Source: Pseudomonadota bacterium
Lineage (GTDB): Bacteria; Pseudomonadota; Gammaproteobacteria; Competibacterales; Competibacteraceae
DNA: 58,447 bases
Reading direction: 5' to 3'
Assembly: GCA_030917925.1 (NCBI GenBank)
Contig: JAUPTV010000109.1
Span: forward strand, 1-58,447
Position 1 is the first letter of the stretch; each line of letters begins with the position of its first letter. Below are positions 9,888-12,939 of this stretch, one piece after another. Under the pieces are notes generated by a model, which was given only the letters and a program-made list of their open reading frames with translations, was not told the DNA's origin and searched no databases. The position numbers were made by a program, and so were the translations under genes.

Positions 9888-9984
9888 ACGCGCCAAATTA
9901 AGGAAATAAGATATTGAAAAAGATGTAAAAGAATAGCAGGCTCCAAGTTCATTCACAAACTGGGTGATCGGGGGATCAACCACG

Positions 9985-10110
9985 ATGAGCCTGCCATTGG
10001 GAAACCCTGATACGACATTTGACAGTTTCTGGCAAGAGTTGCCCGCGAATTATCATGAACTGGCGCTGGAGTTCAAAGCATTTACCCGCTCGCGCAAGAT
10101 CAAGGTTGCT
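9985..10110 (+). pseudogene. IS4-like transposase, N-terminal stub
   Basis: The translation from 9985 (MSLPLGNPDTTFDSFWQELP, then NYHELALEFKAFTRSRKIK) resembles the opening of IS4-family transposases of the FWQxLPxxYHELAxEFKAFxRxRKIK type. The match stops near 10105 and the frame runs on into unrelated sequence to a stop at 10264-10266 inside the IS605 end. No DDE domain survives. The 125 bases between this stub and the IS605 right end are further unrecognised debris. The element was evidently broken by deletion and by later IS605 insertion or rearrangement. Confidence 0.6.
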
Positions 10111-10230
10111 GCCTCCGTGGTGCGTCCCGGACGCAACTGCTCCGGATCGGTAAACGCCCATTTCAGGAGTTGCCAACGCGCCGGAGTACTGGTGCGCCAT
10201 TTGGCGATGAATGATGCAACAGCATCTGTT

Positions 10231-10380
10231 GACATCCTCCCCGCCCTAAAGGGCGAGGATTCCTAGCTCACTTTAGAGCCAGCGTATGATGCCCCATACG
10301 GAGAATGTTTATTGCGGCGTTTACATCACGGTCATGGACTGATCCGCATACACCACACACCCATTCTCTGACCCCAAGAC
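10231..10380 (-). ncRNA. Putative TnpB guide RNA (omega/reRNA)
   Basis: Established for IS605 elements: the guide RNA arises from the 3' end of tnpB and the right end, and carries as guide the bases just outside the element. Here that gives a scaffold overlapping the last codons of tnpB and ending with hairpin CCTCGCCC-TTTA-GGGCGGGG and GGATGTCAA. The guide would begin near CAGATGCTGTTGCATC on the minus strand (about 10233 downward). The 5' boundary is a guess from family precedent. Confidence 0.35.
10239..10258 (-). other. IS605 right-end hairpin
   Basis: Imperfect palindrome CCCCGCCC-TAAA-GGGCGAGG next to the tnpB stop codon. It pairs with a related hairpin at the other end of the element and is the likely TnpA recognition structure. 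Confidence 0.75.
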
Positions 10381-11296
10381 CTTCTCGACCTTTTGGGCCG
10401 CCGATGGCACTGCAACCAGAACAGGTTTGGGTTGAGAGTCTCTCAGAGACTTCTCGGTACACCACCTTCCGCGCAATCGCTTTATAGGAAAGTAGGGTTT
10501 TAAACATAGCCCAACCCGCATCGTTCACGGATTTAGCCAGGTTCGTTTTTGCTAACCGGGCGCTTCCCACATCGCCCACCACAATGAATTCACACTCTTT
10601 AGTGAGCCTATCGGATTCCTTATGCAAAAAGTCTTTGCGCCGATTAGCAATTTTGGCCTGTAAATTCCGTGCTGGCCGCGAACGCTTCTTGCGTTGATGT
10701 TCCGCAATTCGTCGTTGCTGATTCCGATACCAGCGCGGTGCTTCAATCTTGCGACCATCCGAACAGGTCGCCAGCGTTTTCAGCCCAAGATCAATGCCGA
10801 TCTGCTTCGTTCCCGTAGTGGCTTCCATTTCCGGCACTTCAACCACGAAATTGACGTACCAGCGTTTTCGGGAGTCCTGTGCAAAATTTCCAGCTTTAAT
10901 AGTTCCGGGAATATCGCGGCTTTTCCAGAATCTAAACGTATTTCCCGCGTAACTAACTGTATCATCAACCACTTTTATTCCAGACGCCTTAAACGGAATC
11001 CAACCGAGCGACCGTTTTCCACGCCAGCGGAGTTTTCTTTTTTTGCATTGCTTACGGCGGGTTGCATACTCCTCGCAGACCGCCTGAACCGTTTGGGAAT
11101 GGAGTCCTAGTTCTTTACTGCTTCCAGCAGTCAGTTTGTTTAAATCAAACCCGGTCGGCCACCGCTGACCCCATCGCAAAGCGTGTTCCTGAGACTCGTT
11201 ACAGAAATTCCAGACTAAATGACAGGCTCGCGCCAACTTGGTGAGTTGCGGCGCGGCGCTGGAATCCTTGATTCGGTAGCGATAGGTGCGTATCAT
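10268..11296 (-). CDS. tnpB: RNA-guided endonuclease TnpB, IS605 OrfB type
   Basis: A 342-residue TnpB/OrfB. The N-terminal helical HTH_OrfB part is followed by a RuvC-like nuclease. RuvC-I is GIDLGLKTLA with D169; RuvC-III is HDRDVNAA with D322/D324; a zinc finger lies between (C292, C295, C314, C317). At the RuvC-II place, where most TnpBs have an ED pair, this one reads IVVGDVGS (G241-D242); Glu residues at 282 and 285 (REVSERLST) lie where others have VDP. This looks like a subfamily with a shifted or altered catalytic glutamate, not random decay, since the rest is intact. It would cut DNA guided by RNA from its own 3' end, helping keep the element at its donor site. Confidence 0.92.
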   Translation of the reverse strand: MIRTYRYRIKDSSAAPQLTKLARACHLVWNFCNESQEHALRWGQRWPTGFDLNKLTAGSSKELGLHSQTVQAVCEEYATRRKQCKKRKLRWRGKRSLGWIPFKASGIKVVDDTVSYAGNTFRFWKSRDIPGTIKAGNFAQDSRKRWYVNFVVEVPEMEATTGTKQIGIDLGLKTLATCSDGRKIEAPRWYRNQQRRIAEHQRKKRSRPARNLQAKIANRRKDFLHKESDRLTKECEFIVVGDVGSARLAKTNLAKSVNDAGWAMFKTLLSYKAIARKVVYREVSERLSTQTCSGCSAIGGPKGREGLGVREWVCGVCGSVHDRDVNAAINILRMGHHTLALK

Positions 11297-11325
11297 TTGA
11301 CTATGATAGGTATTGGTCTATTGAT

Positions 11326-11733
11326 ATGCAAGATGAACTGAGGCATGGCAGGCACGTTGTTTTTAGACTTCATGTGCATTTGGTCTTTGTTCCAAAATAC
11401 CGGCGAAAAATCTTTGACGCGGACGCGCTTGATCGACTAAAAAACGCTTTTTCTACCGTCTGTGGCGCTTTTGAAGCGACACTGGATGAATTTAATGGCG
11501 AACGGGATCATGTTCATTTACTGGTTCAATACCCGCCAAAAGTCTCCATATCGGCCTTGGTCAATTCGTTAAAAGGTGTTTCTGCACGGCGATTGCGCCA
11601 AGACCGCCCCGATATGGCCCGTCGCTACTGGCACGGCGGATTGTGGTCAGCCAGTTACTTTGCGGCTTCGTGCGGCGGTGCGCCTATCGAAGTATTGCGC
11701 CAGTATATTGAGCAACAACGCGCTCCTGAGTGA
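11326..11733 (+). CDS. tnpA: IS200-like single-strand transposase TnpA (Y1 HUH)
   Basis: A 135-residue Y1 transposase that excises and inserts single-stranded element ends. The HUH motif is H62-V-H64 in RDHVHLLVQYP, and the nucleophile is Tyr127 in LRQYIEQQ. Length is normal for IS200/IS605 TnpA, which acts as a dimer on the terminal hairpins. The ATG at 11326 is 29 bases from the divergent tnpB start, so their promoters overlap. No frameshift or internal stop is seen. Confidence 0.93.
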   Translation: MQDELRHGRHVVFRLHVHLVFVPKYRRKIFDADALDRLKNAFSTVCGAFEATLDEFNGERDHVHLLVQYPPKVSISALVNSLKGVSARRLRQDRPDMARRYWHGGLWSASYFAASCGGAPIEVLRQYIEQQRAPE

Positions 11734-11753
11734 CTGCGCGGTGCGCTCTACAT

Positions 11754-11773
11754 CCCCGCCCTAAAGGACGGGG
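11754..11773 (+). other. IS605 left-end hairpin
   Basis: CCCCGCCC-TAAA-GGACGGGG lies 20 bases after the tnpA stop. It mirrors the right-end hairpin with one mismatch in the stem. It ends about 35 bases before the ald start codon, so the insertion sits almost in that gene's leader. Confidence 0.75.
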
Positions 11774-11808
11774 TCTTTCGCACAAAATCCTGATAAGGAA
11801 GAAAAATC

Positions 11809-12939
<1,131 letters not shown>

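Follow-up and report, generated by a model that had tools for sequence, protein, structure and literature searches.

We analysed a 58,447-nt contig from a Competibacteraceae genome (JAUPTV010000109.1, assembly GCA_030917925.1), referred to here as the window, for which a preliminary description had reported a TnpB at 10268–11296 with an unusual active site and an apparent guide-RNA end. The open reading frame was recovered as described (minus strand, 342 aa), with D169, G241–D242, E282, E285, D322 and D324 all at the residue numbers given and the proposed zinc finger located to cysteines 292, 295, 314 and 317. Its product scored 225 bits against the NF040570 guided_TnpB profile (cut-off 100) and contains the Pfam domains OrfB_IS605 and Cas12f1-like_TNB. 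PADLOC matched Cas12f models to the same gene; since a complete insertion sequence encloses the gene, we read these matches as reflecting common RuvC/TNB domains. The insertion sequence extends beyond the coordinates first considered, to 10229–11792, and includes a Y1 transposase gene; its left end (11792) lies beside tnpA and its right end (10229) beside tnpB (Table 1).

Table 1. Coordinates of the IS605-type element, its predicted guide RNA and the active-site codons of TnpB in the window
Feature	Position	Strand	Basis or remark
Complete IS605-type insertion sequence, 1,564 bp	10229..11792	-	Nine copies with unrelated flanks; empty site of L008
tnpB, Ealt-type RNA-guided endonuclease (predicted)	10268..11296	-	342 aa; NF040570; Pfam OrfB_IS605 and Cas12f1-like_TNB
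tnpA, Y1 (HUH) transposase, 135 aa	11326..11733	+	Y1_Tnp 145.8 bits; transpos_IS200 151 bits; divergent from tnpB
TTAT, predicted target site/TAM at left end	11793..11796	-	TTAT or TTAC in 9/9 copies
Left-end hairpin CCCCGTCC TTTA GGGCGGGG	11754..11773	-	Read directly; also in relatives
Right-end hairpin, last stem of predicted omega RNA	10238..10259	-	100% of cells paired in nine copies; two pairs changed on both sides
Upstream stems of predicted omega RNA, overlapping the tnpB 3' end	10263..10368	-	Fold z = -5.8; two both-side pairs in each of two stems
Predicted 20-nt guide CAGATGCTGTTGCATCATTC	10209..10228	-	First bases past TCAA; vary between copies
D169 codon, RuvC-I, D-L-G motif	10790..10792	-	Pairs with ISDra2 D191
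G241 codon, canonical RuvC-II glutamate position	10574..10576	-	Pairs with ISDra2 E278; G in 24/24 Ealt
E285 codon, alternative RuvC-II glutamate	10442..10444	-	Motif; clade-invariant; after strand 279–284 (model)
D324 codon, RuvC-III	10325..10327	-	Pairs with ISDra2 D361

The ends of the element were defined by comparison of nine copies from Competibacteraceae genomes, all of which begin with C directly after TTAY and end with GGATGTCAA, with unrelated sequence outside; the right boundary falls directly after TCAA (10229). The hairpin and boundary motif that had been noted at the right end were both present, and the nine copies fixed the end itself. For one copy (L008), joining the flanks after TTAC and before GGG gave a continuous reading frame, and a further genome (G027) holds the same locus uninterrupted (89% identical, 203/203 bases); the gene interrupted by L008 appeared response-regulator-like by eye. 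Subterminal hairpins, a fixed left tetranucleotide and no target duplication (nine copies; one empty site) identify the element as a member of the IS200/IS605 group. A search for the window copy's own empty site found none, the right flank giving short or partial matches in relatives, so the window boundary rests on the sister copies. In TnpA, both the HUH motif (HVH, residues 62–64) and the catalytic tyrosine (Y127) of Y1 transposases are intact, and the same genome carries a second complete copy of the element on contig C180 (88% protein identity) with a different guide. These observations bear on whether the copy in the window is an IS pseudogene in decay, as might be suspected from the partial and internally deleted copies that are common in Competibacteraceae, some of them at contig ends. 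With full-length open reading frames, a dN/dS of about 0.1 (see below), an intact TnpA, intact ends and the second complete copy, we regard this as extremely improbable.

Two observations concern the surroundings of the insertion. The start codon of a gene at 11809–12939, alanine dehydrogenase-like by eye, lies about 16 bp from the left end of the element, and the insertion probably separates this gene from its own promoter. On the other side, stretches of 30–140 bases from the right flank (9964–10228) recur in many genomes of the family and gave no Pfam/NCBIfam match; this flank resembles the remains of a different mobile element.

Because the element boundary falls exactly after TCAA, we placed the predicted guide start at 10228 (CAGATGCTG..., CAGATGCTGTTGCATC), in agreement with the start that had been proposed before the nine-copy boundary was available. 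The last 150 nt before the element end folded much more stably than shuffled sequences (z = -5.8) and contained four stems that were 99.2% paired across the nine copies, with six pairs changed on both sides, as compared with a mean of 3.4 in shuffled controls and 0–1 in slid controls. Two of the compensated pairs lie in the last tnpB codons (CGTATG..CATACG versus CGATTG..CAATCG) and alter the encoded amino acids, so RNA structure constrains the coding end of tnpB. Such an overlap between the omega RNA and the tnpB 3' end is as expected for a TnpB guide RNA, and the predicted hairpins are typical. Rfam returned no match at the gathering threshold; at relaxed settings, HgcC matched across the predicted omega RNA (10216–10344, minus strand; 27.8 bits, cut-off 50) and sot0042, which represents omega RNAs associated with tnpB in haloarchaea (PMC12558985), matched at two places under its cut-off. 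We treat these sub-threshold matches as suggestive hints, among them that HgcC may be related to TnpB guide RNAs. A search of the genome itself for TTAY followed by the guide seed gave no exact match, and the matches with 2–3 mismatches resembled background. Two other copies, L010 and L012 (1,352 and 1,181 bp), which have no tnpA homologue nearby, share a GC-rich palindromic insert of 23–29 nt, GCCTGCCCCCGCGTAGGCGGG, within their final omega RNA hairpin.

The catalytic centre of ISDra2 TnpB is formed by D191, E278 and D361 (PMC10097598). Alignment to this protein paired D169 with D191, G241 with E278 and D324 with D361, confirming that the canonical RuvC-II glutamate is absent. Of the two aspartates previously assigned to RuvC-III, D324 is retained because it aligns with D361; D322 is not conserved in relatives (L011 has G and L019 has L at this position) and was dropped. 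Two kinds of TnpB, Ecan and Ealt, were distinguished together with search patterns by Yoon et al. 2023, the glutamate lying approximately 50 residues ahead of the zinc finger in Ecan and six ahead of it in Ealt proteins (PMC10711439). E285 is located six residues ahead of C292 (E-x6-C-x2-C), which is the published Ealt position. The pattern E-x6-C-x2-C-x(12-18)-C-x2-C-x(4-8)-D is matched by E285, C292, C295, 18 intervening residues, C314, C317 and an aspartate; D169-L170-G171 matches D-[not P]-G at RuvC-I, and G241 stands where a canonical glutamate would be missing in Ealt proteins. The window protein thus carries the complete motif D-[not P]-G...E-x6-C-x2-C-x18-C-x2-C-x(4-8)-D used to define Ealt TnpBs (PMC10711439). 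It does not fall among Ecan proteins, which have glutamate at the ISDra2 E278 position (here G241), or among Fanzors and pro-Fanzors, which combine D-P-G with the Ealt site (here D-L-G), or among TldRs, in which the RuvC triad is lost (here D169, E285 and D324 are kept and are invariant in full-length relatives). Judged from its sequence, the G241 TnpB is neither a case of decay nor a new active site, its predicted catalytic glutamate occupying the second known position. The rearrangement is one already described, clade-wide in Ealt TnpBs and Fanzors, and is not peculiar to this protein.

We then considered the two positions across an alignment of relatives and other TnpBs of the sampled genomes. 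G241 and E285 occurred together in 24 aligned sequences, and those with E241 had R, P, A, Q, S, V or a gap at position 285 and never E, although these counts are non-independent, many of the sequences being related. In a tree confined to the sampled sequences, all 20 of the Ealt rows that were long enough fell on one side of a single branch (support 100/99), which accounts for this non-independence. Canonical TnpBs with E at 241 coexist in the same genome (L003, L004). Comparison of the window tnpB with seven equal-length homologues gave dN/dS values of 0.08–0.12, pointing to strong purifying selection (about 0.1). Taken with an alternative triad that does not vary, such values speak against a protein that is dead or in decay.

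The preliminary description had left open an active nuclease with a rearranged site or a cleavage-dead TnpB; the first is the likelier, with E285 as the relocated residue, and the second is disfavoured. A protein limited to RNA-guided DNA binding, either as a TldR-like repressor or as a silent competitor, would be compatible with the missing canonical glutamate, and TnpB-derived RNA-guided transcription factors do exist (TldR, PMC13418256). However, loss of the glutamate at 241 was always paired with E285, the sole exception being the degenerate L118; D169 and D324 are invariant in full-length relatives; the 241/285 feature is common to the whole clade; and the Y1 transposase and both transposon ends are kept, with copies at different sites. 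We therefore consider a cleavage-dead TnpB very unlikely. L118 itself (G320:C97:5231-6094; 365 aa) has V at 241, G at 285, a damaged zinc finger and a very long branch (2.49), and may be either decayed or misaligned, or a true cleavage-dead TnpB.

An AlphaFold2 model computed from a 12-row alignment is moderately reliable only (mean pLDDT 75.5, pTM 0.49). In this model E285 directly follows strand 279–284, ahead of the zinc finger, whereas E282 lies within that strand and position 241 ends strand 235–242. The modelled placement of E285 agrees with a published description that puts the glutamate in the loop linking the fifth strand to the TNB domain (PMC11423790). The best fold match was ISDra2 TnpB (Z 20.4, rmsd 6.6, 313 aligned), followed by mimivirus Fanzor2 (Z 19.6, rmsd 7.3, 322 aligned). 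It had been suggested that E282 or E285 takes over from the missing glutamate, and only E285 withstood the comparison. That E282 provides the catalytic carboxylate, alone or with E285, might be argued from its frequency in the clade, where it was nearly invariant in one comparison; yet L016 has V at this position and L116, L130 and L139 have I or M, the residue is inside a strand in the model, and it is off the published Ealt spacing, leaving this assignment highly improbable. Since E282 varies and several relatives have N in place of D242, neither residue is the replacement.

Among known systems, the closest is the D-Phi-G Ealt TnpB clade (Yoon et al. 2023, PMC10711439), with which the window protein shares D-L-G at RuvC-I, a glutamate placed six residues ahead of the zinc finger's first cysteine, the absence of a canonical-site glutamate, a CCCC zinc finger and the RuvC-III aspartate; comparison of these defining features found no difference. 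By these features and the tree, we assign the protein to this already described kind. Fanzor1, Fanzor2 and pro-Fanzors have the alternative glutamate at identical spacing, and mimivirus Fanzor2 is close in fold as noted, but they carry the D-P-G fingerprint and are associated with IS607 or eukaryotic transposons; pro-Fanzors are IS607-linked, whereas this TnpB is coupled to a Y1 transposase in an IS605-type element. ISDra2 TnpB (Ecan) resembles the window protein in architecture, right-end RNA, IS200/IS605 context, the D191/D361 equivalents and fold; it differs in having E278 where G241 stands here and a proline at the alternative place occupied here by E285, and the TTAY left flank also sets the window element apart. 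TldR nuclease-dead TnpBs are likewise TnpB-derived with an altered canonical catalytic residue, but the present element keeps an alternative triad with all three residues, as well as its transposase and its two ends.

The element anatomy and boundaries, the covariation of the RNA stems, the residue exchange, the single clade and the purifying selection were observed. The best explanation, to which we assign a probability of roughly 0.88, is an intact IS605-type element encoding a predicted RNA-guided nuclease of the D-Phi-G Ealt clade, in which E285 replaces the glutamate lost at 241. D169, E285 and D324 would then form a metal-binding RuvC site. Processing of a transcript across the tnpB 3' end and the right end would yield an omega RNA with a guide that starts at 10228 and is copied from the right flank; TnpB and the omega RNA would form an RNP, and the loaded TnpB would cleave DNA in which a TTAY TAM precedes the guide sequence. 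Its presumed target is the empty donor site left after excision by the Y1 transposase, and cutting of that site would promote retention of the element, a role described as likely for TnpB in general (PMC10278001).

In the Fanzor SpuFz1, magnesium is coordinated by E541 together with D383, N385 and D606, and dsDNA is cleaved without robust collateral activity (PMC10432273); E541 would correspond to the Ealt residue, going by the general statement on Fanzors in PMC10711439, and this favours a catalytic role for E285. By analogy, it is possible, if rather doubtful, that Ealt TnpBs with a Y1 transposase cut guided dsDNA and do not show the collateral cutting of ssDNA that characterises canonical TnpBs. 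If so, the protein, at 342 aa, would represent a hypercompact Fanzor-like cutter from bacteria, in keeping with the single-stranded mobility of its element. The literature searched did not report an experimental study of any Y1-linked Ealt TnpB, and the present one, being small (342 aa) and having precisely placed ends, a clear target motif and a known guide start position, is suited to asking whether the relocated glutamate alters collateral cleavage. More generally, absence of the canonical RuvC-II glutamate does not equate to a dead TnpB, and the position six residues before the zinc finger needs checking first.

In the fetched loci of three distant Ealt groups (G111, G144 and G247), no transposase resembling this TnpA was found near the gene, and linkage to a Y1 transposase is therefore not universal in Ealt TnpBs. 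G247, a single gammaproteobacterial genome, contains ten full-length relatives, and the three examined (L116, L130 and L139) were all Ealt.
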